Of a DNA stretch of 64,000 bases, positions 4,619 to 24,682 are shown in pieces. Origin of the DNA: Candidatus Zemynaea palustris (GTDB lineage: Bacteria; Vulcanimicrobiota; Vulcanimicrobiia; Vulcanimicrobiales; Vulcanimicrobiaceae). Under the pieces are notes generated by a model. The model did no database searches. It was not told where the DNA came from and worked only from the letters and a program-made list of their open reading frames with translations. Positions within the stretch are counted from its first letter, which is position 1, and every line of letters begins with the position of its first letter. Made by a program: the position numbers and the translations under genes. The stretch lies in contig PLCB01000026.1 in the NCBI GenBank assembly GCA_003134695.1, positions 196,045 through 260,044 of the forward strand, in the 5' to 3' direction.

Positions 4619-5308
4619 TTACGTAACGATCTTGGCAAGTTTGTCGGCGCCGACCGCTTTATAGAAGGCGTTGTCGGTCTCGCTGATCTTCGGCGCCCAC
4701 GGATCGATTTGCGCGCCGTTGACCGGAAAATGCACGGTCGGCCCGACGGCGTCGCCGTAATCCGCATCGGCGAACGGCGCGAAGTCTCCGCTTTCGCGAT
4801 GGGCGAGCACCGTCTGCCGGATCGCCGCCGAGGCGGCTTGCGCGGCACTGCGCACGCTGTCGGACAGGCGACCGTCCTCGGCAAACGTGTCGTACAGCGC
4901 GAGCGCCGGCCGATCGGCGCGCCACGGCAAGTGCCTCCCTTTTGGAAAGCGCACCATGCCGTCGATCGCCTTCGCATCTTCACGAATCGCGGCGCGAGCC
5001 GAGCGGTCGCGCGCGGCGGCGACCAGCGCACGGTCGAGGTTTTCGACGCCCGACTCGATCGAGGCGGTCTTCTTTGGATCGAGATCGAGGACGTCGAACG
5101 CTGCGGCCGGCGACCAGCCGCCGTTGCTCGGGAAGTAGCGCATCTCCATGACGCGATCGACGACGCCGCGCGCCATCGCCGCGGGATCGCCTGCGTGCGC
5201 CGCGATATCGATCGCAACTTCGCTGGGTACGCCCGGCGCAAGCATCGTCTCCGGTGACGCCGCCAGATAGCGCACGCCCGCGTGCGAGAGCGCCGACGAA
5301 AAGCCGAG
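4619..5308 (-). pseudogene. Clostripain-like (C11) cysteine peptidase, 3' fragment cut off by the casposon
   Basis: This is the C-terminal part (about 230 codons) of a peptidase whose N-terminal part lies at 24111-24682. The reading frame runs into the left terminal inverted repeat at 5308, and any ATG-like start beyond that belongs to transposon DNA. It begins LGFSSALSHAGVRYLAASPE, the segment that follows the catalytic Cys in clostripain-like proteins (compare the usual ASEE-type motif). Joining both fragments and counting the 14-bp duplication once gives a continuous 415-residue protein. As it stands it is separated from its promoter and catalytic dyad, so it is presumably non-functional. 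Confidence 0.88.
5295..5308. repeat. Left target-site duplication (14 bp)
   Basis: The sequence GACGAAAAGCCGAG lies directly outside the left inverted repeat and is found again at 24111-24124. The identity can be stretched to 18 bp (5293-5310 and 24109-24126) only by counting two bases that also belong to the inverted repeats on each side. Fourteen bases is the size typical for Cas1-driven casposon insertion. Confidence 0.92.
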
Positions 5309-5346
5309 GGGATAGGAGACAGAGCGCTCCAAGACGAGGCCCCCCC
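5309..5346 (+). repeat. Left terminal inverted repeat (38 bp)
   Basis: It starts GGGATAGGAGACAGAGCG and ends in a run of seven C. Its reverse complement occurs at 24073-24110 with a single mismatch (C at 5327 in the left copy). Weaker similarity between the two ends continues inward for several tens of bases. Confidence 0.95.
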
Positions 5347-5899: not shown

Positions 5900-5921
5900 G
5901 AAATCAGGCGGACAAGCGCGT

Positions 5922-5988
5922 CAGAGCGCTCCAAGACGAGGCCCCCCCGGTCCGGGCGGCGGTGGGCTGGGCGCCTTGGGGCTTAGCG
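5922..5988 (+). repeat. Internal copy of the element terminus
   Basis: Bases 5922-5948 are identical to the inner 27 bases of the left inverted repeat (5320-5346), including the C7 run. Continuing inward, 5949-5988 matches the right arm (reverse complement of about 24035-24071) better than the outer left arm does. The outermost 11 bases of the terminus are absent. This looks like the original or a second left end now lying about 600 bp inside. Confidence 0.85.
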
Positions 5989-7060: not shown

Positions 7061-7642
7061 CTACAAGACCGAATTGCCCGAGTTCTTGCGTCTCTGGAGT
7101 TCGATATGCCAGCCAGGCGACTCATAATTTAGCGAGACAGCGAGTCCTTTGGTTATCTCTTCATAAAGACCGCCGCCGTCGCTAAATTCCCAAAACGAAG
7201 AAAACACTCCCTTTCCTACTGCCAAGGCAGTCTCGTGCTCGCTCTCTGAGTCTGCTTCCGTGTAAGGATCCATCCAGAACTCATAGTGTTTCGCCGGCGC
7301 CCCGTATTTTGTTGACAGTGTAGCCTTCATCTCTACGTAATAGTTCAGTGCCTCGTCGTTGCTGGTTACGAAGACGACCTGCATTTTGACTAAGGTGCGC
7401 GCGGGTGTAAGAAACGCATAAACCCGGACATTCTTTCCGTTGATGGCGCCCGAGAAATCAAGATCTCCGTCGGAATCTACTTTGATAAATGTAAATCCCT
7501 TGGATTGCAATATTGCCTTCACTGTAACGGCCGATGAAAGCCAAGGTACGCCCGCAAAAGGTGGCGCACCCGCTGCATCAGCCGGGGCCACGCAAGTGAC
7601 GGCGGCAAAGATAGGAAGCAATAGCGCAAATAAGTAACGCAA
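7061..7642 (-). CDS. Exported protein of unknown function (element cargo)
   Basis: 193 residues with a clear signal peptide (RYLFALLLPIFAAVTCVAP followed by ADAAGAP). The mature part reads like a small secreted beta-rich domain with the pattern PFAGVPWLSS ... KVDSDGDLDF ... KYGAP, similar in style to short periplasmic proteins that begin with a GVPWG-type segment. No catalytic motif is visible. It stands alone on the minus strand, with about 200 bases of mostly non-coding sequence upstream. Confidence 0.65.
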   Translation of the reverse strand: MRYLFALLLPIFAAVTCVAPADAAGAPPFAGVPWLSSAVTVKAILQSKGFTFIKVDSDGDLDFSGAINGKNVRVYAFLTPARTLVKMQVVFVTSNDEALNYYVEMKATLSTKYGAPAKHYEFWMDPYTEADSESEHETALAVGKGVFSSFWEFSDGGGLYEEITKGLAVSLNYESPGWHIELQRRKNSGNSVL

Positions 7643-7841: not shown

Positions 7842-8768
7842 CTAAATAAGCCGCATCATGATTTCGAGATGCTGAGAGATGCCCAGTCTCTTAGGGACTC
7901 CTAAGCCAGGATAGTGGCCCTCTTGATGATATCGCTGATATTCTGCCGTCGCCAGGGTCCGATTACGTGGTCCGAGTGGGCGTATATCGGAAACGAGTTT
8001 CGCGACCGCTTCCGCAAATTTGCCCGCCTGGTCGTCCTGAGTCTCGTTTGTGTCGGATTTGTAGTGCCTTATATAAATCGCGTCGTTTTCGCCGCTGTTG
8101 ATGTAACAGTGATGTAGTGCAATGCAGTATGGGGCGAAACCGCTCTCCGTCGATTCACCAACGATTGAGTAATCGCCGAAGTGCTCGAAGGCATCATCCG
8201 GGATGACGAGGTGTCGGTCAGAGAAAAACTCATCGTCTGGATAGTCCTGATTGCGAGCCTGCCGATTGAATGGGTCGGTGATCTGAACGCGGATTTCTCT
8301 AGGAAAGAGATTTCGCAGCGCGACGGGCACCTGTCCCTCGCGAATAAGCGCGAATTCAGGATTGAGGGCGGCCGCCTCCTCAACGTGCTCCTTGCTGGCA
8401 CCTTGAGTAACAAAAACAGCTCGCCGATCTTCGTACTGCGCGGCGAATTCGGTAATTTCTTGCGAAGTCGAATCTCGATCTATATACAGAGTCGGCACAA
8501 ACAGATCATATTCGTCCAGGGTGCCGTCCACTAGGTCCGCATATGTTTCTCCGACAGTGCGTCCGCGGAGCGCCCCAAAGCGCGGATTTGTTATCAAACA
8601 GAACGAAGTAGAGTTGTCCACGAGTTCCTTGACCGTAAGTTCATATGACCCGTGGGCTCCCAATGGCTCTACTACAGGCATAATGGAATCGTCAGCGCCC
8701 AATTGACCAGCCAGATCTCTTAAAGCCAGCATCTCGTACATCTTGCCGCGCAAAACCGGAAAGTACAT
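7842..8768 (-). CDS. sce7725 family protein (beta-protein-like), putative defence component
   Basis: 308 residues. It starts MYFPVLRGKMYEMLALRDLA and ends with GVPKRLGISQHLEIMMRL, which fits the sce7725/beta-protein family as I remember it: these proteins open with a Y-P-L-L-R-G/K pattern and contain a TIM-barrel-like fold. The function is not established. It starts 13 bases after the sce7726-type gene, the usual partner, so they form an operon. Such pairs are frequent in accessory islands and are suspected of anti-phage roles; that role is inference here. Confidence 0.75.
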   Translation of the reverse strand: MYFPVLRGKMYEMLALRDLAGQLGADDSIMPVVEPLGAHGSYELTVKELVDNSTSFCLITNPRFGALRGRTVGETYADLVDGTLDEYDLFVPTLYIDRDSTSQEITEFAAQYEDRRAVFVTQGASKEHVEEAAALNPEFALIREGQVPVALRNLFPREIRVQITDPFNRQARNQDYPDDEFFSDRHLVIPDDAFEHFGDYSIVGESTESGFAPYCIALHHCYINSGENDAIYIRHYKSDTNETQDDQAGKFAEAVAKLVSDIRPLGPRNRTLATAEYQRYHQEGHYPGLGVPKRLGISQHLEIMMRLI

Positions 8769-8781
8769 TTTTACGAATTCC

Positions 8782-9690
8782 TCACGCGCAGCGCGACTCT
8801 AGCGCGGTCTCGAAGCGAGCTCGCGTAAGTCGTCCTCGCGCTTGTTCAGTAATAAGATTCAGAAAGATACCGCGAACGGCTGATGGCAGCGCGCTACAGT
8901 CCCGTTGCACAACGTTTCGATAACGCAATTTTAGGACCCTAATAAGCGAAGCGTGCGCAATTTCAGGGGCCAACGTCGCAAAAAGTGAGCGGCACTCGCG
9001 ATATAGCAGGGTGTTCGGCACCTGAGGAATTCCGCCAAACAGTCTTTCGATCTCGGGAAGGAACTCCGGCTTTCTCATGCACGAGAAAATGTTTTCGGCG
9101 CTCACGTTCGGAACATTATCCAAATGTTCGCGAACGGTAACAATCTCTCCGGGCGTGTCCAGCGTGAGTATCCCGGCTCGCGCATCTAGTGTCGCTTGGA
9201 CTGCCGCGAGATGCTTCGCGTCGCAGACCACGTAGACGCGATCGAAAACCTTGAGATAGGTATCAATTTGAACCTCGAGCCGACCCAACGAGTCGAACGC
9301 AGTCTTTATCTCGTAGGCACATGTCGTTCCATTTACGACGGCCAGGTCAACGCGAACCTTGCTCAACCGAAGCTCGGGAATCACGAGCGAACTTCCAGGT
9401 GTATGTCGAGAAGTTACTAGATAGTTTAGGAGCTCATTCTTGTAAACATACTCGCACCGATACGCCTCACGCATTTCGCCGTACACGCGGCTCAGGTAGG
9501 AAAGGACACTCTCCTGCGCATGGGCGACCAATCCAGTGGCGCGCCCGATTTGCGCGATTAGCGGTATGTGCGTCCCACTTTCGACGCGAGCCAAGAAACT
9601 CGGACGGAATAGCATCGCCACCGACGGGGTCAGGCGTGCTTTCTGAGGCGCGGGAAAAGTGTCAATCGAGGATGAAAGGAACTCGCTCAC
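8782..9690 (-). CDS. sce7726 family protein with PD-(D/E)XK nuclease-like core
   Basis: 302 residues. The segment VRVDLAVVNG ... AYEIKTAFDSLGRL ... Q ... Y has Asp115 and the E127-x-K129 pair expected of a PD-(D/E)XK nuclease fold, and it matches the typical sce7726 pattern of an RVDLA strand followed by YEIK, a basic residue and Gln. It is the first gene of a two-gene operon with the sce7725-like gene. Activity on nucleic acids is inference from the motif. Codon and base use look less GC-biased than the flanking chromosome. Confidence 0.78.
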   Translation of the reverse strand: MSEFLSSSIDTFPAPQKARLTPSVAMLFRPSFLARVESGTHIPLIAQIGRATGLVAHAQESVLSYLSRVYGEMREAYRCEYVYKNELLNYLVTSRHTPGSSLVIPELRLSKVRVDLAVVNGTTCAYEIKTAFDSLGRLEVQIDTYLKVFDRVYVVCDAKHLAAVQATLDARAGILTLDTPGEIVTVREHLDNVPNVSAENIFSCMRKPEFLPEIERLFGGIPQVPNTLLYRECRSLFATLAPEIAHASLIRVLKLRYRNVVQRDCSALPSAVRGIFLNLITEQARGRLTRARFETALESRCA

Positions 9691-10782: not shown

Positions 10783-11152
10783 GCCGGATCCTGTAGTTTA
10801 CGGTAGAGTTATGGAGTCACTGCGTTCAGAAGCCGAACGTGATCCCAGTGGTTCTGTTACCACGTCTTCCGTCAGCGGCGCTCTTGGGATCAGTCTTGAC
10901 GACGCTACGATCGCGCTAGAACACGCTCTCGATAAGCGTTTATTGCGGCGCGTCAATCAGAACGTGTGTGACCTTTGTGGCTCCGTCGCATTGAATTCAG
11001 GTGATTCTGGAGGCGCGTCCGATTTTTGCTCGGACTGCAACTCGATAACGCCCCAGACGCGCTATGTCATTTACAGATTTACCGAGCGCCTGCGACGGGA
11101 ATCGCGCCGCCCAAAAGACCCGCGGCGCAGGGCGCCGCTCGTCAGGGTTTAG
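10775..11152 (+). CDS. Winged-helix-like protein with a zinc-finger segment
   Basis: 125 residues. The N-terminal ~70 residues look like a winged helix-turn-helix (VSGALGISLDDATIALEHALDKRLLRRV). Then comes CDLC, about 20 residues, and CSDC, a four-cysteine zinc-binding pattern, and a basic tail. It overlaps the end of the previous gene by eight bases and is overlapped by the next, so the three are probably translated together. DNA or RNA binding is likely; its role is unknown. Confidence 0.65.
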   Translation: MRRPDPVVYGRVMESLRSEAERDPSGSVTTSSVSGALGISLDDATIALEHALDKRLLRRVNQNVCDLCGSVALNSGDSGGASDFCSDCNSITPQTRYVIYRFTERLRRESRRPKDPRRRAPLVRV

Positions 11153-11511
11153 GATCCACGCTCGCTCCAGCCGATCGCCTGGAAGCAGTTGCGGAGCGTC
11201 TCGAGAAACTTGATCTTCGGCGGCCATGGTGGCGCGAAGTCCTAAGCTTCATTGCGGACTTTTGGGCCTTCCTTACCATCGGTGTGCTGCTGATTGGTTT
11301 CCTGGTAAGTCTCGGCCCCGCAAGGCCATTCGTGGATCGTGTTCATTCAGTGTTGGTAACTGAGACTAACAGATTCGCGTCTTTTGTACGCCACTATCGC
11401 TCTAGCCAGCAAAGCCCGGCGACCGTGAGGACAGGAGGGACCGAAAAGAGCGACGCGCCTTTGCGGAGGCCGAGTCCGCCGGCCACGGCGAACCCCAAGT
11501 CGCCGCCGTAG
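11026..11511 (+). CDS. Small single-pass membrane protein of unknown function
   Basis: One clear membrane helix (FWAFLTIGVLLIGFLVSLG) is preceded by a short amphipathic segment (LEAVAERLEKLDLRRPW) and followed by a Pro/Ser-rich tail. The start is uncertain. TTG at 11026 lies inside the previous gene, and the convincing protein begins only near 11150, where no standard start codon is present. It is the third of three overlapping genes; a membrane protein beside a zinc-finger protein is a layout also seen in defence modules. Confidence 0.5.
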   Translation: MLGLQLDNAPDALCHLQIYRAPATGIAPPKRPAAQGAARQGLGSTLAPADRLEAVAERLEKLDLRRPWWREVLSFIADFWAFLTIGVLLIGFLVSLGPARPFVDRVHSVLVTETNRFASFVRHYRSSQQSPATVRTGGTEKSDAPLRRPSPPATANPKSPP

Positions 11512-11541
11512 GTCTTCCCCTCAGAACCGCGAGGCGAAGCC

Positions 11542-12675
11542 GTGAAACAACTTACTCGCTCCGAACTATTTGAGCTTGTCTGGAAGCAGCCGATGAGCAC
11601 GCTCGGACCAACCCTCGGCATTAGCGGCACTGGCCTAGCTAAGGTCTGTAAGCGCGCCGGGATACCGACGCCGCCGCACGGCTACTGGGCGAAACTGCAA
11701 CATGGGAAACGTGTCCGGCGACCAGCGCTTCCGCCGGCGCCGCAGGGGCAGAGTGAACAGGTCGAATTTGAAACCGGAGCGCTGAGCCGAAACCTGAGCG
11801 TTGACCAGATCCCGCAAGACATCGCAGCGCTCGTCGAGGCGGAACGCGCGGCTGAGAAACCGCTAACCGTGGCTCAACGCCCGACGAAGTTTCATGCAGT
11901 AGTTGAAAAATGGTGGCCACATGCCACGCGATCATTTGGTTCTCAAACGCGAAATGAAAGACAATCCAAAGCAGAAGTACGCCAGCGAAGCACTTTGAGT
12001 ACGTTCGCTTCCGAGATTGGCAGGCTTGGCGGGTCTGTCACCTGCGACGAACGGCGCAGGTTAACCGCGCGGATTGCTGGCGAGGACATAGAGTTCTCAC
12101 TGAGCGAGCGCTCCAAACAGATCCGAGTCCCTCTTACTGAGCAAGAGGCTCGATGGGGTTTCTACGCCGATCGGGGCTATAAGACCGAGAACGAAGCGAC
12201 CGGCGAGCTCAGACTGCGGATCGAGAATTACTTCGACCAACCGATCCGGAGACAATGGCACGATGCGCCGGACAAACCGCTCGAGCAGCAGTTAAGGGAC
12301 ATTCTGATCGGGTTTCTCTTCGCGAGCGCGCTCGAACGAGAAAAACGCCTTGAACGGGAAGAGCAGCAGCGCAGAAGGCTTGAGGAAGAGCGTCGCAGGT
12401 ACGCTCTCGCAGAGCGCCGGCGAGAAGTGAACACCGAACTACAGGCGCTTCGTGACGAGGTGGCAGCGTGGATCGAGGCGGCCCAGATCCGCGCCTACGT
12501 TAAAGCCTGCATGGGGGCCTCGGGCCAAGGCGGCGCGGATTCTCTTAGTCCGTGGGCTCGCTGGGCGATGGTTGCGGCAGATTCAATCGACCCCCTCATT
12601 CCCGATACGGACGAAAGCGTCTTGTTATCCACTGAATTGCCAAGCCCTAACCATGATACTGAGCCAGACGAATAG
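11542..12675 (+). CDS. Hypothetical protein with N-terminal HTH-like segment and charged coiled coil
   Basis: 377 residues. The N-terminus KQLTRSELFELVWKQPMSTL ... GISGTGLAKVCKRAGIPTPPHGYWAKL matches a widespread family of bacterial hypothetical proteins from accessory regions, with a likely helix-turn-helix. A long Arg/Glu-rich coiled coil occupies about residues 255-300 (EREKRLEREEQQRRRLEEER). A GAGGCGAAGCC stretch precedes the ATG. It ends six bases from the end of the convergent cas1 gene. Function unknown; DNA binding is inferred. Confidence 0.7.
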   Translation: MKQLTRSELFELVWKQPMSTLGPTLGISGTGLAKVCKRAGIPTPPHGYWAKLQHGKRVRRPALPPAPQGQSEQVEFETGALSRNLSVDQIPQDIAALVEAERAAEKPLTVAQRPTKFHAVVEKWWPHATRSFGSQTRNERQSKAEVRQRSTLSTFASEIGRLGGSVTCDERRRLTARIAGEDIEFSLSERSKQIRVPLTEQEARWGFYADRGYKTENEATGELRLRIENYFDQPIRRQWHDAPDKPLEQQLRDILIGFLFASALEREKRLEREEQQRRRLEEERRRYALAERRREVNTELQALRDEVAAWIEAAQIRAYVKACMGASGQGGADSLSPWARWAMVAADSIDPLIPDTDESVLLSTELPSPNHDTEPDE

Positions 12676-12681
12676 GGATTC

Positions 12682-14109
12682 TTACAACACGGCTTTCGTC
12701 TCGGCTTCACGCTTACGCTGCCGTAACTCCCGCTGCTGGGCGGCTCTTCGCGCTCGGTGCTGATCCGGAGTAAGACGCATGGCCCGCCGCTTGTTACTGG
12801 CGGCAATAGCGGCGCCGCGCTTCTTCGCTGCTTCGCCGCCGTGGCCGGGACTCAGACCCTCGCTGCGCATTTTCTGCAGTTTTGCTCGGGCCAATTCGAT
12901 CGGCCGCGCTACCTCGACGGAATACCGTAAATAACAATGCCTTGAGCAGAACTTGAGGCCGACTTTCTTGAGCGGTTTTTGGCAATAGCCGCACGGCCCA
13001 CCATCGCCGAGACGAAGCGCCGGGGCCTTGGCGGCCTTGCGATCATCGATGAGACGATAGGGGATGGTGATGTGCCGAAGGTCGCGTGCGAAGCTCGCAG
13101 CCGCTTCAGCCGCCGGGCGTCGCAGCTGGGGCATCAGCCAAGCCGCATAGGCTCGAGCAAGGTCCGGGTCCAGGCGGACAACGCCGTTCGGTAGCTCATG
13201 GAACATGTGTGGCCGCAAACCGGCGCGATGGCAGAACCCGAACGAAAGCGTATCGACCCGGGTTCGAATCGGCTCCTGAAGATCATAGATCGCTGACTGC
13301 CGAAGCCGATCATCAACGTGAATAAGGCCGAGGTCGGGGTCGAGCCCCTCCTGCCCGCACGCAATGCGCACTTCGACCTCGAGTAACGTGTACCCATAAT
13401 TCAGAAGCGCATTGAAAGGATCTGTGGCGTTTCGTACCCGAGCCTTCAGCCCAGACTCTCGCGGCCAGACTCGTAACCAATGTTCCGGTATTCTGGATTT
13501 GGTCCATGCCGGCCACGGTAGCGGAGTCCCGGCAAGAAGCTCCCAATAGGTTCGCGCCGCATAACCTTCGTGAGCCAGAAGATCACGTAATTCTCGATCT
13601 TTATGGAGCGAATCAACAATCGTCCCGATCTCATTTAGAGCGCGCGTCCTGCACGGGTCCGTTCGATTGATGATGCCAAGATCTGGCAACTCGGTCTCGA
13701 TGGCATCGATCTGACTCTTAAGCTTCCTGCGGAGCAAACTCTGTGCAACAGTTACGCCGTCCTCAGTGACGCCTGCGACCGCCTGTGCACGCTTTAGCGG
13801 CCCGTCGGAAACTATGCCCGGAACGTAGCAACTAAGAAGACGACTGTCCGAATTGAGGTACGCGATCGTGACGTTCTTTCGGCTGCACCAGTCAATCGCG
13901 GAAAAGGAGACAACCCCGGCGGGCGACCGAACGACGAGCCGGCATAACTTCGTGCGCCCCCGAGCGAACCTCGTCTTTCGACGCTTGGGTGCGGGCCCGT
14001 GACCATCTCGGATGATGAGGTGGGCGCCCTCAACATTGATACTCGCGCCGTAGCCGTCCACAACAAACACTGGTCCGGCATGGCGGCCTGTGATAGACTC
14101 GGTGAGCAT
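12682..14109 (-). CDS. cas1: Solo Cas1 endonuclease/integrase (casposase) with C-terminal zinc-binding tail
   Basis: 475 residues. The N-terminal beta domain (VFVVDGYGASINVEGAHLII ... AIDWCSRKNVTIAYLNSDSR, residues 14-90) is typical of Cas1. The catalytic helical domain has Glu181 (HEGYAARTYW), the FNALLNYGYTLLE helix (232-244), His264 (LGLIH) and Glu279 (YDLQEPIRTRVD), matching the Cas1 metal site. After about residue 370 comes an extra ~105-residue tail with CGYC (373-376) and CSRHC (388-392), a likely zinc site, then a very basic end. CRISPR Cas1 proteins are usually ~300-340 residues and lack this tail; archaeal casposases have a C-terminal HTH at this place. No cas2 or CRISPR array lies nearby. 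Predicted role: cutting, joining and target capture for the element. Confidence 0.93.
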   Translation of the reverse strand: MLTESITGRHAGPVFVVDGYGASINVEGAHLIIRDGHGPAPKRRKTRFARGRTKLCRLVVRSPAGVVSFSAIDWCSRKNVTIAYLNSDSRLLSCYVPGIVSDGPLKRAQAVAGVTEDGVTVAQSLLRRKLKSQIDAIETELPDLGIINRTDPCRTRALNEIGTIVDSLHKDRELRDLLAHEGYAARTYWELLAGTPLPWPAWTKSRIPEHWLRVWPRESGLKARVRNATDPFNALLNYGYTLLEVEVRIACGQEGLDPDLGLIHVDDRLRQSAIYDLQEPIRTRVDTLSFGFCHRAGLRPHMFHELPNGVVRLDPDLARAYAAWLMPQLRRPAAEAAASFARDLRHITIPYRLIDDRKAAKAPALRLGDGGPCGYCQKPLKKVGLKFCSRHCYLRYSVEVARPIELARAKLQKMRSEGLSPGHGGEAAKKRGAAIAASNKRRAMRLTPDQHRARRAAQQRELRQRKREAETKAVL

Positions 14110-14174
14110 TTTGGAGTCAGTACCTCCTGATGCGATGCCCCCGGTCCGTTTGCGCGGGTCGGGGGCAGCTAGTT

Positions 14175-15131
14175 TTATCCTGGGTTTCGAATTGAGTTCA
14201 ATTCAGTCTCGACGGCTGAACTAAGCTGCGTCAGCGCAGCCTCGGCGTTGTCGGCCATAATTCTCAGTTTTTCGGAGAGTTCTGGCTTCTTGCTTCTGAT
14301 CAGCACTAAGCCGGTGAAGAGAAGCGGGCCTCTAAGGGTCACCGGTTGACCTAAGAAGGAATCAGTGAAAACACCCAGCCCGAATCTGTTATCGCCGTAG
14401 AGGTTTTGCGCAAAGCCAGCCCACGCGATCATCTTTTCGTAATTCAGAAGATCAGTCTTAGCTTGAAGGAGTTGTTCGTCAGTCACTGAGTCGAGGCATG
14501 TAAGCCACTCGGAGCTCAGGCTCATCGCTTCCATAAAATCCGGCGTCGTTTCACCGCTCAGCCAAGGACCGATGCCGGGCAGCGTATCTGATCGCGCTTT
14601 ATCAAGGCCGGTGGCGGCCTCAAATTCCCTCGCAGCTTGCTTCTGCTGCTCGATACTTACTTGTCCGCCGAACGCCGCGGTAGCCATCGTGTCGAACAGA
14701 GTATAGAAACCGCCGTCGCGCGAGAGCGCCCGGACCTGTTTGGAAACCCCCTTCTTACGATGAAGGCCGTCCGCAATCTTCGTACTGTATTCCGCAACCT
14801 TTTGTGGGTCCGCGGTTCTCGGCACGATCTCTCGTAAAGCACGGCGCACACGCTCGATCGGTATGTCATAACCGTCGATCCACAGCCGAAAAGCGGCCAA
14901 GTCAAAGGAACGTTCTTCCTTTAAGAACTTCGCGAGGGCAACTAATTGCGCCACGGTCCCGGGCGGCGCGGTTCGTGCAATGCCCTTGCCGCGGCCGCGA
15001 CCTTCAGCGGTGGGTGTTGGCAACAGCTTCTCGGTCCGCCATCGATCGATCTGCTTGCTACCGACCTCGATACCGAGCGCGGCCGCCTCGTCGATCAGGG
15101 CCTGTTTCTCGGGGCTGACGGACGCTTTCAA
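14175..15131 (-). CDS. MerR-like HTH protein of unknown function
   Basis: 318 residues. The N-terminus (about residues 10-45, ALGIEVGSKQIDRWRTEKLLPTP split over the helix) resembles the first helix-turn-helix of MerR-type regulators, followed by a Gly/Arg-rich linker and a Leu-rich helical body. It precedes cas1 on the same strand with a 65-base gap, and its start faces the polB operon across a shared control region. It could regulate the element or help Cas1 or PolB recognise the ends; both are inference. Confidence 0.65.
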   Translation of the reverse strand: MKASVSPEKQALIDEAAALGIEVGSKQIDRWRTEKLLPTPTAEGRGRGKGIARTAPPGTVAQLVALAKFLKEERSFDLAAFRLWIDGYDIPIERVRRALREIVPRTADPQKVAEYSTKIADGLHRKKGVSKQVRALSRDGGFYTLFDTMATAAFGGQVSIEQQKQAAREFEAATGLDKARSDTLPGIGPWLSGETTPDFMEAMSLSSEWLTCLDSVTDEQLLQAKTDLLNYEKMIAWAGFAQNLYGDNRFGLGVFTDSFLGQPVTLRGPLLFTGLVLIRSKKPELSEKLRIMADNAEAALTQLSSAVETELNSIRNPG

Positions 15132-17070: not shown

Positions 17071-17564
17071 TGTCGGACGCGCCGCGGGTCAGTCGCATCA
17101 TGAGCCAGTCGCGCAAGGCGCGCAAGGCCCGGGTGCGCGGCGTCGGCGCGAAATGCAAGGACTGCGGAACCGACGATCCGCTGGTGCTCCTCAAGACGCG
17201 GCCGATTCTCTGCGAAGCGTGTAAGCGGCGCCGCGACGAAAAATCCGCACGTGACGGTCATCACCCCAGCGCCAAGGCAAACTCGACGTTCACCATACCG
17301 GTCCCGGTCAATTCACATCGCCGGCTTACCGATGCCCAGAATAATTGGGATCCAGAGACGTGGAGAAACCCAACGGGCTGCCCCTTACGCGCGGCCGCCG
17401 GCTGCATTCAAGGCTTTATTGACACATGCAAAGAGATGATGGACGCGATGCTCGCGTGGATCGTGGAAATGCTGGAGGCGCTTTCGGATCTTCTGCGCGA
17501 GCAACTCGGCGAGCGCTGGTGGGTCGGAACGCCCCTCGAGCAATGGGCTCGCCCGCCCGAGTAG
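17070..17564 (+). CDS. Zinc-finger protein directly upstream of polB
   Basis: 164 residues. A four-cysteine zinc ribbon (CKDC ... CEAC, residues about 29-55) sits behind a basic N-terminus, and the C-terminal third is a helix with repeated hydrophobics (MMDAMLAWIVEMLEALSDLL). It overlaps the previous stop by one base and the polB start by 22 bases, so it is almost certainly co-translated with polB. A role as replication accessory or primer protein is possible but not shown by the sequence. Confidence 0.6.
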   Translation: MSDAPRVSRIMSQSRKARKARVRGVGAKCKDCGTDDPLVLLKTRPILCEACKRRRDEKSARDGHHPSAKANSTFTIPVPVNSHRRLTDAQNNWDPETWRNPTGCPLRAAAGCIQGFIDTCKEMMDAMLAWIVEMLEALSDLLREQLGERWWVGTPLEQWARPPE

Positions 17565-20500
17565 AGTCGGGCGAGCCGGAACCTCTGAAAATCGCCGTTC
17601 GCGGTTTCACGGAGTGGGACGGCGCGAAAGAGCGTCGGGCTGCGACATATCGGAAATTCGCGGGCAACGTCCTCATCCTCGATACCGAGACGCGCATCAG
17701 CGCGGCGCAGAATCTGACCTTCGGGAGTTACCGGCTCCTGGAGGCCGGCCAATGCACCGAAGAAGGCCTATTTTACGGCGATGACCTCACTCCGAAAGAA
17801 ATGGCCTGCCTGCATGAATACGTGAGATCGCGCGACGCTGACGTCGCCCCCGGATTTTCGAAAAAACTCTTGCTTTATAACCAGCGCGATTTCCTGAGGT
17901 TGTTTTACGAGGCTGCCTTTCGGTCGCGGTTCCTCGTCGTTGCTTTCAACCTACCTTTCGATCTGTCTCGCCTTGCTTTCGACGTGGCGTCGGCTCGGGA
18001 CGAATTCGCCGGCGGATTTTCACTTATGTTATGGCAGCGGCCCGGGAGCGAGCTCGAAAACAAGTACCGCCCCCGCTTCGCCGTCAAACACATAGACTCG
18101 AAGCGCGCCCTCAAGGGATTCACCAAACCGGTTGTGCTCGATTATGCCGACCGGATTCCCGAGGGATCGAAGACCGGTAAGCCAGACAAACGATACACAT
18201 TTCGTGGCCACTTTTTAGATCTGCGCACCCTAGCCTTCGCGTTGACTGATCGCGGCCACTCACTGAAAACCGCGTGCGAAGCCTTCGGCGTCGAGCACGG
18301 GAAAACCGAACCGGACCGGCATGGGATCGTAACGCCGGAATATATTGACTATAATCGCCGCGACGTTCTGGCGACGACAGAGCTCTATTTCAAACTCATG
18401 GAGGAATACGAGCGCCATCCCATCCCGCTCCAGGCCACCCGCGCCTTTTCACCCGCCTCGATCGGCAAAGCCTACGAACGGGCTATGAGCGTCGTGCCCC
18501 CCACTGGACCGGCAGCCAGACTTTGACAAGGTGTTTGTCGGAAATGCGATGTCCGCATTTTTTGGGGGCCGCGCCGGGGTCCACATACGTCGCGTGCTGG
18601 TGCCGATCGTGTATTGCGACTTTTTGTCGATGTACCCCACGGTCAACGCACTGATGGGTTTATGGGACTTCATTATCGCCCGCAAGATCGAGGTTGTCGA
18701 AGCGACGACCGAGGTTCAGTCTTTTCTGAACACGGTCGATCAAGACCGACTCTTTGATTCCAAGACGTGGCGCAAATTGCCGGCATTCGTACAGCTGGAA
18801 CCGGCCGGCGACATTCTTCCCGTCCGCTCCGCATTCGACCCCGACACGAAGGACTGGCAGATCGGGGTGAATTTCTTACACACCGGCAAGGAAGGCCCGC
18901 GCGAGGCGCTATGGTACAGTTTGCCGGACGTCGCCGCCTCGGTGCTCCTGACCGGGCGTATCCCAAAGATCATGCGAGCGCTTCGGCTCAAAGCGGTGGG
19001 GAGGCAGCGCGGCCTGAAATCCGTCAAGTTCCGGGGCGACATTCCCATCGACCCTCGCACCCGCGATTTTTTCAAAACGGTCGTGGAACAGCGCAAGCTC
19101 CTCGACCAGCGCACGGACCTGTCGGAAGACGAGGTAAAGCGGCGGGGCGGCAGCCTGAAGGTCACCGCCAACGCGACCAGTTACGGCATCCTGGCCGAAA
19201 TGACGCGGCACGAACTAGGCGAGCGGCGCAAGGCGTGGGTCACCGTGTATGGCGTCGATGACGAATCGTTCCGCTGCAAGGTGGCGGCGCCCGAAACGCC
19301 GGGGGAATACTGCTTCCCACCCTTGGCGGCGCTCATTACCGGCGCGGCACGTTTGCAGCTCGCGTTACTCGAGCGTTGCGTTACCGATCTTGGCGGTACG
19401 TACGCGATGGAGGACACTGACTCTATGGCGATCGTCGCCACGCGCGACGGCGGCCTCATTCCGTGCCGGGGCGGCCCGCACGTCGTAGGGGGCCGGGAAA
19501 TGATCAAAGCGCTGTCCTGGGCCCAGGTTAGGGGGATTGCCGGGCAATTCCAGGACCTCAACCCCTACGAACCTTCGGCCGTGGACGGATCGGCCCTAGA
19601 AATCGAACCCGACAATTTCGACCCGGTAACGGGCGAACAACGCGAGATCTATTGCTTCGCGATCTCGGCAAAGCGCTACGCGTTCTTCATGTTCGACGCG
19701 AACGGCGACCCGCAGATTCTTCAGAAGAAAGTGAACAATAAGGACGACGGATGGTCCGAACACGGACTGGGTCATCTCCTTAATCCAATAAGCCCAAATA
19801 GCGAGGATCGAGGCTGGATCCGCGAGGTTTGGCTATACCTCATTCGGTCCGCGATAGGATTGAAGGCGGAGGCGCCGTCCTGGTTCGACCGCCCCGCGTT
19901 AACCCGGATGAGCGTGAGCAGCCCGGCGATGCGCGAATTGTTTGAAAGAATCAACGAAAATAAGCCATACAAAAAGCAAATAAAGCCATTCAATTTCCTG
20001 TTGACCGCGCATATTGCGCCAGATGGTTACCCGATCGGCGTCGATCGGGATCATTTCCATCTTTTTGCGCCATACGAATCCGATCGCCGGAAATGGGAAA
20101 ATCTGACCTGGGTTGACCGTTACAGTCGGAAAACGTGGAAGGCATCGACGCTGATCAATCGCGGGACGAGCACGATGGCGCGACTGCAAACCTATCGTGA
20201 CATCATCGAAAAATACGCGTTCCGCAAAGAAGCAAAAAGCGCGGACGCTTCGGGTGAGGTCTGTGGCAAGAAAACCGTCGGCCTCCTGCAGCGCCGACAC
20301 ATTGCCGTCGGCAAACTAACCCATATCGGAAAAGAATCAAACAAGCTCGAGGATGTGCAATCTGGGATAGTTCACGATGTCGATGAGGTCACGACGGAGC
20401 TCGTTGACCCAAAGCGCGATGAATGGACGACCGTCATTTTGCCGATCCTGCGCGAAATGCCGATTTCATTATTGATGCGCGAAAGTGGTCTTTCTCGAGC

Positions 20501-20591
20501 AACGATTCAAGCAATTCGCGCCGGCCGGCGCCCTTACAAGAAGAATATGGAGCGCCTCGTGGCGCTCCGATTTGCCCGGGGCAAAACCTGA
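17543..20591 (+). CDS. polB: Family-B DNA polymerase, split by a one-base frameshift
   Basis: Two adjacent frames together make one ~1015-residue polymerase. Frame one (17543-18526) holds the 3'-5' exonuclease: Exo I DTE (47-49), Exo II AFNLPFDL (Asn136, Asp140), Exo III YIDYNRRD. Frame two (palm frame, open before 18531 to 20591) has palm motif A DFLSMYPT (Asp359), motif B KVTANATSYG (Lys539) and motif C EDTDS (Asp624, Asp626). The join is at a C6 run (18497-18502): with one C fewer the text reads VVPPLDRQPDFDKVF without a break. The 180-residue spacing A-B and ~85 B-C are larger than in many RNA-primed PolBs, which would fit protein-primed types, but this cannot be decided here. An HTH-like segment ends the protein (LLMRESGLSRATIQAIRAG). 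Start ATG 17543 chosen over upstream frame that shadows the previous gene. Confidence 0.9.
18497..18502 (+). other. polB: C6 homopolymer frameshift site in polB
   Basis: Six C residues between the exonuclease and polymerase halves; one C too many for a continuous frame. It may be a sequencing or assembly error, a real inactivating mutation, or a site of translational slippage. The coding quality is high on both sides, right up to the run. Confidence 0.85.
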
Positions 20592-23117: not shown

Positions 23118-23942
23118 TCAGGTCGTTCCGTCATGCTGCTCCCAAGTCTCAAGGATGAACGCGACAAGTGCATGGGCAGCGTGGATCGCCAACCTTGCAT
23201 GGCGTGGCGTCAACCGGTATCCTCTTTTTGAGGTTCCCTGTGCGTGAGCAGAACTAGCGTGCGTGCGCAGGGCGGCGATGCCCCCAGCGGTTGCTATCAA
23301 ACCGCCCAGGATTGCCTTTAGGTCATCATCTTCAATCGCCGACGGGTCGAAGCCGAGATCCTTACGGACGACTCCAAAGACACCGCTCAAGTCTTGTTTG
23401 GAGGGCATTGATAAATGCGGGTGTTGAACAATGTATTCCTTACAAATCGCCTCTAATATGTTAGCGGCAGCCGACACCGCCTCTCTAGGCTTGGTTTCCA
23501 CATTTTCGGTAGCACGTTGAAACTCATCATGAACCGCTGGAAAGTCTCTCTGTTTTAAGATCGTTGCTAAGGTAGCCGTTGAACTTCCAGCCATCGAGGC
23601 AGCCCGGATTATTTTTCCACCTGTGACGTAACGTAAGCCGTACTTGCCGAGCAGCGCGTGAAGACTCTCGCGATCTTTCTCGTATTGTGAACCCGTCGAA
23701 ACCTCGCGCTCCATGAAGTCCTCCAGCAGCTTTCCCAAAGTCACAAACGCGGTTTGTGGTTCGTCCCGGTTGACTGCTCGCAGCCAGTGCGTGATGGTAT
23801 CGACCTTGTTGCCGCCTGGGCTTTCTACAGCCGTGCCGCTATGATAAAAGAGATTCTCGAACTGGCTCCTTGTGTAGTATTGGTCAAAGAGCCGAGCAGT
23901 CAACGCAATCACGGGCATGGGAATCGTTTCGAGCCGAGTCAT
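23118..23942 (-). CDS. Abortive infection family protein (Abi_C-type C-terminus)
   Basis: 274 residues. The C-terminal half fits the Abi_C pattern: EAVSAAANILEAICKEYI, then LKAILGGLIATAGGIAALRT with HASSAHAQG (the usual R-x-x-x-x-x-x-H-G type motif), and the closing helix ARLAIHAAHALVAFILETW. Proteins of this family are linked to abortive phage defence and occur mostly in accessory regions. The first half is helical with no known domain. It stands alone just inside the right end. A remnant of a second copy lies at 7735-7803 in inverse orientation. Confidence 0.82.
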   Translation of the reverse strand: MTRLETIPMPVIALTARLFDQYYTRSQFENLFYHSGTAVESPGGNKVDTITHWLRAVNRDEPQTAFVTLGKLLEDFMEREVSTGSQYEKDRESLHALLGKYGLRYVTGGKIIRAASMAGSSTATLATILKQRDFPAVHDEFQRATENVETKPREAVSAAANILEAICKEYIVQHPHLSMPSKQDLSGVFGVVRKDLGFDPSAIEDDDLKAILGGLIATAGGIAALRTHASSAHAQGTSKRGYRLTPRHARLAIHAAHALVAFILETWEQHDGTT

Positions 23943-24072: not shown

Positions 24073-24110
24073 GGGGGGGCCTCGTCTTGGAACGCTCTGT
24101 CTCCTATCCC
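24073..24110 (-). repeat. Right terminal inverted repeat (38 bp)
   Basis: Reverse complement of the left repeat with one mismatch: seven G inward, GGGATAGG outward when read on the minus strand. A degraded second copy of its core (TCTTGCAACGCTC, about 24011-24023) lies some 75 bases further inside, against TCTTGGAACGCTC in the repeat itself. Confidence 0.95.
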
Positions 24111-24124
24111 GACGAAAAGCCGAG
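24111..24124. repeat. Right target-site duplication (14 bp)
   Basis: GACGAAAAGCCGAG, identical to 5295-5308. On the minus strand it encodes Leu-Gly-Phe-Ser-Ser of the interrupted peptidase. Confidence 0.92.
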
Positions 24125-24682
24125 GGTTGCCATCATGCATTGATTGGCGACCACGCCGTCGACGCGACGACCCGCGTCTTCGGGATGGGCTTTCGCGTGC
24201 AGCGCGACGCCGTCGGCGATCGCTCCGGCCATGTCGTCTTCGCGCATGATTCCGACGTGCCGTCCGCCGGGAGTCGGCGGACCGCCGCCGGCGTGATCGG
24301 CCTCGAGTCCACCGCCGTCGCCGGCCCCGTGATCGACGAGGTCGATCCAAGTTTCTTTCGCGCCGGATTTCTCGGCATTGTCGAGCGTTCGGGCCACGAA
24401 CTGGGCGAGGTTGGCGCGCGACGACATGTCGTGCATCGGCGATTCCTTGAAGCTGAATTCTTGCCCGTCGTCGAGACGGTAACTCTGCGTGGAGAGGGTG
24501 TCTTCGGTATCGACCATATCCGTGTCTTCGACGGTGAACTCGATCGAGGGCTGCTTGGCGCTGACCTCGATGGCTTGGTCGAGCACGATCGACTGGATGT
24601 CGTCGAGGTTATTGTCGCCGTCGCGGTAGATGCCGAATTCGAGCGCGCGCGTCCGCCGCTCGGGGGAGAGGGTCGCGATCAT
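24111..24682 (-). pseudogene. Clostripain-like (C11) cysteine peptidase, 5' fragment cut off by the casposon
   Basis: Start of the interrupted gene, with a good ribosome-binding site (GGAGGT, spaced by three bases from the ATG). It has the FGIYRDGDNNLDDIQ opening typical of clostripain-like proteins, the catalytic His118 (VDHGAGDGGG) and catalytic Cys182 (VANQCMMATLGF). The frame then enters the right inverted repeat and stops at a TAG within it after SSG. The 3' part is at 4619-5308. A ~191-residue truncated protein could still be made, but it would lack about half the domain. Confidence 0.88.

Follow-up and report, generated by a model that had tools for sequence, protein, structure and literature searches.

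A casposon-borne sce7725/sce7726 gene pair as a likely anti-phage module of the P4 gop-beta-cII kind

What does a pair of genes known by the database names sce7725 and sce7726 do on a mobile element that moves with a Cas1 casposase? The pair lies in a stretch of 64,000 nucleotides from Candidatus Zemynaea palustris, here called the window. The preliminary description, made from the letters alone, presented it as an uncharacterised PD-(D/E)XK-like and beta-protein-like pair, carried by a casposon together with an Abi_C gene, and took this as support for a defence or toxin-immunity function. The pair itself is real: both curated NCBIfam models match far above their cut-offs, NF033831 for sce7725 (E 8.7e-69, 232.6 bits, cut-off 60) and NF033832 for sce7726 (E 4.5e-45, 153.8 bits, cut-off 70); a Pfam scan of the two proteins matched neither. 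Both genes are full length and co-directional on the minus strand with a gap of 13 bp (Table 1), and the GC content at the pair is 53-55% in 1-kb steps, compared with 60-67% in the first 6 kb of the window.

Table 1. Features of the casposon and of its target gene, in window coordinates.
Feature	Coordinates	Strand	Basis or remark
Target gene, C-terminal part; first ORF codons lie inside the casposon end	4619..5332	-	Uninterrupted in G001 and relatives
Left target-site direct repeat, at most 18 bp	5293..5310	.	Perfect match to right copy
Left terminal inverted repeat, 36 bp; may begin at 5309	5311..5346	+	35/36 identical to right end
sce7725, 308 aa	7842..8768	-	Predicted TIM-like barrel; NCBIfam NF033831
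sce7726, 302 aa	8782..9690	-	PD-(D/E)XK nuclease-like; NCBIfam NF033832; P4 cII homologue
Cas1 casposase with C-terminal extension	12682..14109	-	Pfam Cas_Cas1, E 1.1e-34
PolB-like gene, exonuclease part, own frame	17426..18526	+	tblastn to sibling polymerase-like N-termini; motif by eye
PolB-like gene, polymerase part	18531..20591	+	Motifs conserved in 4 elements
Protein with an Abi_C domain, second cargo gene of defence-like type	23118..23942	-	PF14355, E 6.8e-17
Right terminal inverted repeat	24073..24108	-	35/36 identical to left end
Target gene, N-terminal part	24104..24682	-	Uninterrupted in G001 and other relatives
Right target-site direct repeat, at most 18 bp	24109..24126	.	Perfect match to left copy

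The sce7726 protein carries the motif of the PD-(D/E)XK superfamily, a D followed by ExK (D115, E127, K129). Asp115 and Glu127, the two residues singled out in the preliminary description, are present in the window copy and, like E106 and K129, invariant among 36 aligned sce7726 sequences. Its structure model (pLDDT 86) was matched by Foldseek, with partial coverage and low TM-scores, to 3dnx (E 5e-5) and SfsA (E 1.3e-3), both of which we take to be members of the same superfamily. At the sequence level, profiles of sce7725 and sce7726 each returned two weak rows from the PDB, which were taken as chance.

Judged by sequence comparison, sce7726 is homologous to cII of phage P4. BLASTP aligns the window protein to P4 cII with 29% identity over 107 residues (E 4e-13), and hhalign aligns the sce7726 profile to it at 98.5% probability (E 2.6e-15). 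The PADLOC family 'cll' recognises both the window protein (E 1.9e-21) and P4 cII (E 3.2e-113), so the window holds a homologue of the cII component of gop-beta-cII. In the NCBI record of P4, cII is annotated as sce7726 family and the adjoining beta as beta family. Phages lambda and P1 are both held off by gop-beta-cII of P4, in which Gop is toxic if beta is missing and beta likely acts as an antitoxin; the study reporting this cloned 18 systems and the P4 set, of which seven protected (PMC9122126).

The relation of sce7725 to beta is more distant. Its AlphaFold2 model (pLDDT 88, pTM 0.87) is a TIM-like barrel, and the PDB structures that match it are generic TIM barrels (best Z 11.0), uninformative on function. 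Foldseek found no PDB match below E 0.001, and a search of BFVD gave one match past this value, an uncharacterised Gordonia phage protein for which we found no tie to beta; P4 beta is not named among the 50 BFVD matches listed. The beta models of Pfam (PF14350) and PADLOC do not match sce7725, and its profile aligned to the single P4 beta sequence with a probability of 1.2%. A profile of 7 beta sequences, compared with profiles of 37 or 9 sce7725 sequences, gave 52-78% (E 1.5e-4 to 1.9e-5), in alignments that start at an N-terminal motif common to both families, whereas control comparisons of sce7726 profiles with beta or sce7725 profiles gave 0.4-0.5%. We regard sce7725 as a probable, not a proven, remote relative of P4 beta. 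The earlier label 'beta-protein-like' thus holds weakly: the profile-profile comparison speaks for it, the missing Pfam match against it.

The likeness to P4 extends to the company the proteins keep: beta and sce7725 both pair with a protein of the cII/sce7726 type, and P4 cII and the Escherichia coli relative of the pair both adjoin an integrase gene. Six plasmid and phage records with beta were examined. After beta, three of them (L201, L202, L203) have a gene annotated as sce7726 and two (L200, L204) a gene without a name, convergent to beta in all five; the remaining record has no annotation. The systems differ in that sce7725 takes the place of a PF14350 beta in the window, in orientation (P4 cII is convergent to beta, whereas the window genes are co-directional) and in that no gop was found with the window pair: tblastn of P4 Gop against window positions 1-26000 at E 1 gave no match, in a search that likewise failed to pick up a Gop in the Pasteurella phage locus L204, and there was no gop model among the window ORFs scanned with PADLOC. 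A second tested system, PD-lambda-2 of E. coli, shares the beta side: its third component, C, is described as related to a P4 phage antitoxin; defence depends on it, toxin neutralisation does not (PMC9519451). P4 beta matches the PADLOC model PD-Lambda-2_C at 8e-14. The partners of C are different, HigB-like and HigA-peptidase proteins, with no cII or sce7726 protein named in the excerpt of that study (PMC9519451).

How firmly does the pair belong to a casposon? The placement proposed earlier is borne out by the Cas1 gene, by inverted ends identical at 35 of 36 positions, by the direct repeat of at most 18 bp, and by genus-mate G001, in which the target gene runs continuously across the insertion point and so represents an empty site. 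The ends together with this empty site therefore delimit an element of about 18.8 kb that holds the pair and, as had also been stated, the Abi_C (PF14355) gene. Sibling elements suggest a shorter duplicated core, probably of 14 bp (5295-5308), in which case the inverted repeats would begin at 5309. The Cas1 gene is not tied to CRISPR: no other cas model rose above its cut-off among the window ORFs scanned (Cse1, at E 0.14, stayed far below), and a repeat listing of window positions 1-22000 contained no short regularly spaced repeat. The PolB-like gene gave no Pfam or PDB sequence match above cut-off; its conserved motifs, read by eye, we take to be those of family B DNA polymerases.

Three further observations concern the element and its genome. 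The PolB-like gene is in two frames at 18526-18531, where three siblings have a single ORF of 956-1034 aa. A third copy of the casposon end, closer to the right end than to the left, lies at 5917-5980, 600 bp inside the left end, and is possibly a remnant of an earlier or tandem insertion. Elsewhere in the genome there is a second, distant Cas1 match (L015, G000:C45:190617-190907), which possibly belongs to a CRISPR locus.

The interrupted gene presumably encodes a clostripain-like peptidase, to go by its motifs; Pfam on both halves and a PDB search with the uninterrupted protein gave no match. Relatives of the casposase with about 50% identity occur in G018, G038, G012 (two) and G107. In each of the first three genomes, a copy of the target gene is cut where the window copy is, at the codon right after a conserved NQC motif, and gives way to a casposon-like end. 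G012 carries two elements in tandem with single copies of a 14-bp repeat between. Less in keeping with a simple shared target, the interrupted copy in G018 stands at a contig start, that genome has a second, uninterrupted copy elsewhere (L168), and no right end of the G038 element was located within the stretch examined. In G107, the common target codon is occupied by an insertion of about 4 kb whose ends are casposon-like (L174, reverse strand, ~11,105-15,120), about 125 kb from the casposase gene on the contig; it is possibly a non-autonomous casposon. In all, casposons or casposon-ended insertions sit at this codon in five genomes (the window; L020, L021, L023, L024, L174). Because one codon is hit in genomes with five genus labels while the end sequences differ, the sequences point to a fixed target for these casposons. 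The insertion in G018 may be tandem too. Two further copies of the target gene, in L176 (G035) and L177 (G036), are interrupted by something else about 20 codons past this point, which suggests that a second element family uses the same gene.

With their Cas1, PolB-like gene, inverted ends, target duplication, siblings at a common target and tandem insertion (G012), these elements are like known casposons; they differ in taking the middle of a protein gene as target and in their defence-type cargo. Passages of a casposon review give as targets the 3' ends of tRNA and EF-2 genes and, for some casposons, other conserved sites. A cargo scan of 59 ORFs from five elements, leaving out seven (the sce pair and five Cas1 genes, one from the window and four from siblings), gave for the siblings, among the matches listed, nSTAND3, Mrr, OLD-type and other AAA ATPase and PIN matches, as well as beta-lactamase-type and trypsin-like matches that do not look like defence genes. 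Three Walker-A proteins were placed in the siblings L021, L023 and L024, and the remaining cargo was placed by eye. The cargo stretches are L021:8066-10336, L023:16357-18099 and L024:11301-13250, with nSTAND3/Mrr, an OLD-type ATPase and AAA plus PIN; by eye, L023:18303-19973 appears SIR2-like. Since casposons also carry such seemingly unrelated genes, carriage by a casposon says little on defence when taken alone.

More can be learned from the relatives of the pair in E. coli. A relative with 22% identity to the window sce7725 is present in 421 of 5,426 E. coli genomes at an identity of at least 99%, in 420 of them over at least 80% of the query, and among the matches listed an integrase gene is named at 25 of 25. 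At the one locus examined, the pair is part of a P4-like satellite, flanked by an ogr/Delta-like gene on one side and the integrase gene on the other. In five related satellites without the pair, the same slot holds SLATT plus reverse transcriptase (two), an AAA ATPase plus DUF4435 (one) or an unnamed single gene (one), the fifth satellite being more distant with unnamed genes; the SLATT, reverse transcriptase and DUF4435 calls are RefSeq annotations. According to Rousset and colleagues, the cargo locus between psu and int in P4-like satellites is a reservoir for anti-phage systems, and they report from it an RT plus SLATT pair and PARIS, an AAA plus DUF4435 pair (PMC9122126). We equate the two slots because of the integrase position and the gene content; the slot of the pair borders ogr/Delta, not an annotated psu. 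In one E. coli genome (NZ_AP022549, 1520684-1523314), the satellite pair is split by an IS1 transposase gene.

The surroundings in other genomes are in keeping with this picture. A PADLOC comparison at E up to 1e-8 set 120 ORFs from the neighbourhood of 16 loci against 120 control ORFs taken some 200 kb along the same contigs; the former match 98 models, the latter 37. The best 25 of the 98 are led by PDC-M01, PtuA, PDC-M11, Upx, KwaB and KwaA, whereas the best 25 of the 37 are mostly helicase-type. These loci, from 16 of 20 genomes, are all of the RES type described below, and the comparison is only suggestive because the matched gene is not identified and several models can match one gene. 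Defence-type genes thus appear to neighbour RES-type sce7725 loci; for the location in defence islands that had been proposed as a check, the matches to PDC-M01, PtuA, KwaB and KwaA are a hint and not a statistic.

But what partner, if any, does the pair work with? RES proteins are a toxin family, and in 80 of 80 genome loci a match to the RES model directly follows sce7725, at a distance of -44 to 12 bp; in three of the 80 the match is in pieces. These loci are the best 80 of 295 sce7725 loci, a biased sample, gathered with a search profile led by a RES-type protein from Salmonella. Pfam confirmed the RES assignment on one protein, from Rhizobium (PF08808, E 3.3e-18); RES had no match among PDB sequences. 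The two sce genes are rarely apart: sce7726 stands beside sce7725 in 79 of the 80 genome loci and 16 of 17 viral-contig loci. The order sce7726-sce7725-RES recurs in five of six plasmid records examined (11 matched), the sixth being an Enterococcus plasmid with neither a RES nor a sce7726 match beside sce7725. RES was found in two of three phage-collection records (L036 and L040, not L039) and in 2 of the 17 viral-contig loci, 11 of which (L045-L055) have identical match values and lack RES; L045 is the E. coli form. Carriers of the pair include plasmids, an ICE, satellites and a casposon, and an excerpted listing of a Pseudomonas IME names RES, sce7725 and sce7726 with no functional claim there (PMC9394441). 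We found no description of this operon group as a defence system in the open-access literature.

The window pair has the same two proteins in the same order as the sce7726-sce7725-RES operon of Salmonella, Rhizobium and Moraxella but not its third gene (PF08808): no RES match adjoins sce7725, and none was found in window positions 1-26000 or in the whole genome searched. A candidate for a downstream RES gene, the ORF at 7061-7642, was rejected, having no Pfam match and, by eye, a signal-peptide-like start. In the phylum of the window the sce family is patchy, occurring in 4 of 149 genomes, and none of these four loci has RES in the 1-1.5 kb past sce7725 (26 kb for the window); RES genes do occur elsewhere in the genomes of G121, G125 and G027. 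In a tree with long branches, the window copy groups with those of G125 and G121 (support 97/88).

The interpretation of the preliminary description is partly supported by these results. That the pair is uncharacterised is true insofar as we found no open-access description of sce7725/sce7726 as a defence system, but the sce7726 half belongs with cII of the experimentally tested gop-beta-cII, and the 80 sampled loci are RES operons. A function in defence or toxin control is predicted from the homology to P4 cII, the P4-type cargo slot and the RES partner, and more weakly from the defence-type neighbours. We consider a defence role for the pair likely, and the link is one of association: its relatives sit in satellite anti-virus slots and beside a predicted NAD-destroying toxin, hence probably a phage-defence or toxin-control pair. 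Our main reading, to which we give a probability of roughly 0.62, is a two-gene, toxin-antitoxin-like anti-phage module of the P4 gop-beta-cII kind, carried as casposon cargo. In such a module, sce7726 is the cII-type PD-(D/E)XK protein and sce7725 would be the counterpart of beta; the two would form the constant part and the toxin the variable part. As the control and sensing subunit, sce7725 would hold a toxic partner in check until disturbed by a phage product, this partner being Gop in P4 and, in the sampled genome loci, the RES-family protein, predicted to degrade NAD+. In the two-gene form of the casposon and the E. coli satellites, the effector would be the nuclease-like sce7726 itself, cutting nucleic acid and arresting either phage growth or the cell, unless an unlinked host factor takes this part; with no RES and no Gop match found, the toxic partner of this form is a guess. 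The casposon would benefit, and with it the host against competing phages. Toxicity, restraint, trigger and any phage protection by the pair are inferred.

The same observations can be read in other ways. The near-constant adjacency of the two genes, their presence on plasmids, an ICE, satellites and a casposon, and a partner from a toxin family would all suit an addiction module that merely stabilises its carrier casposon or satellite and has no anti-phage role, as would the likely antitoxin activity of P4 beta (PMC9122126). We consider this unlikely, as the E. coli satellite slot otherwise holds RT and PARIS-type genes and the homologous P4 module protects against phages (PMC9122126). More doubtful again is that the window copy is a decayed three-gene operon whose toxin, RES or another, was lost, leaving an anti-toxin or anti-defence remnant or nothing functional. 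RES is present at every one of the 80 sampled genome loci, no RES was found in the window genome, and the window copy is on a long branch, as such decay would predict; yet both genes are full length with their catalytic residues, and 420 E. coli genomes carry the two-gene form at 99% identity or more over at least 80% of its length. This conservation, together with the grouping of the window, G125 and G121 copies without RES (97/88), implies that the two-gene form seems to be kept.

Could sce7726 instead serve the casposon directly? Cas4 is likewise a PD-(D/E)XK protein and works with Cas1, and 4ic1 (SSO0001), which we take to be a Cas4, is a weak Foldseek match to the sce7726 model (E 0.012), so one could imagine a Cas4-like accessory nuclease that processes ends with the casposase. 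We give this very little credence, as annotated plasmid, ICE and satellite stretches that carry the pair list no cas1. A place for sce7726 as such a casposon part was also rejected because neither protein gave a tblastn match at E 1e-4 in the stretches examined of the sibling casposons L020, L021, L023 and L024, or in L026.

A broader reading also suggests itself, which we put forward tentatively and would at present sooner doubt than believe: a beta or sce7725 protein with a cII or sce7726 protein might be a general immune core for pluggable toxins, and the casposons of this lineage might be site-specific carriers of defence genes that home to one codon of one protein gene. The toxins plugged into such a core would be Gop in P4, HigB/HigA-peptidase in PD-lambda-2 (for the beta part only), a RES-family NAD+ phosphorylase in the widespread three-gene operon and, in the two-gene form, the nuclease itself.

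The analysis presented here turns a database name without a function into a testable anti-phage module tied to P4 gop-beta-cII, and across a large operon group it predicts a tightly linked NAD+-degrading toxin. Casposons have been discussed as ancestors of CRISPR adaptation; here they appear with ordinary defence-type cargo at a common target.
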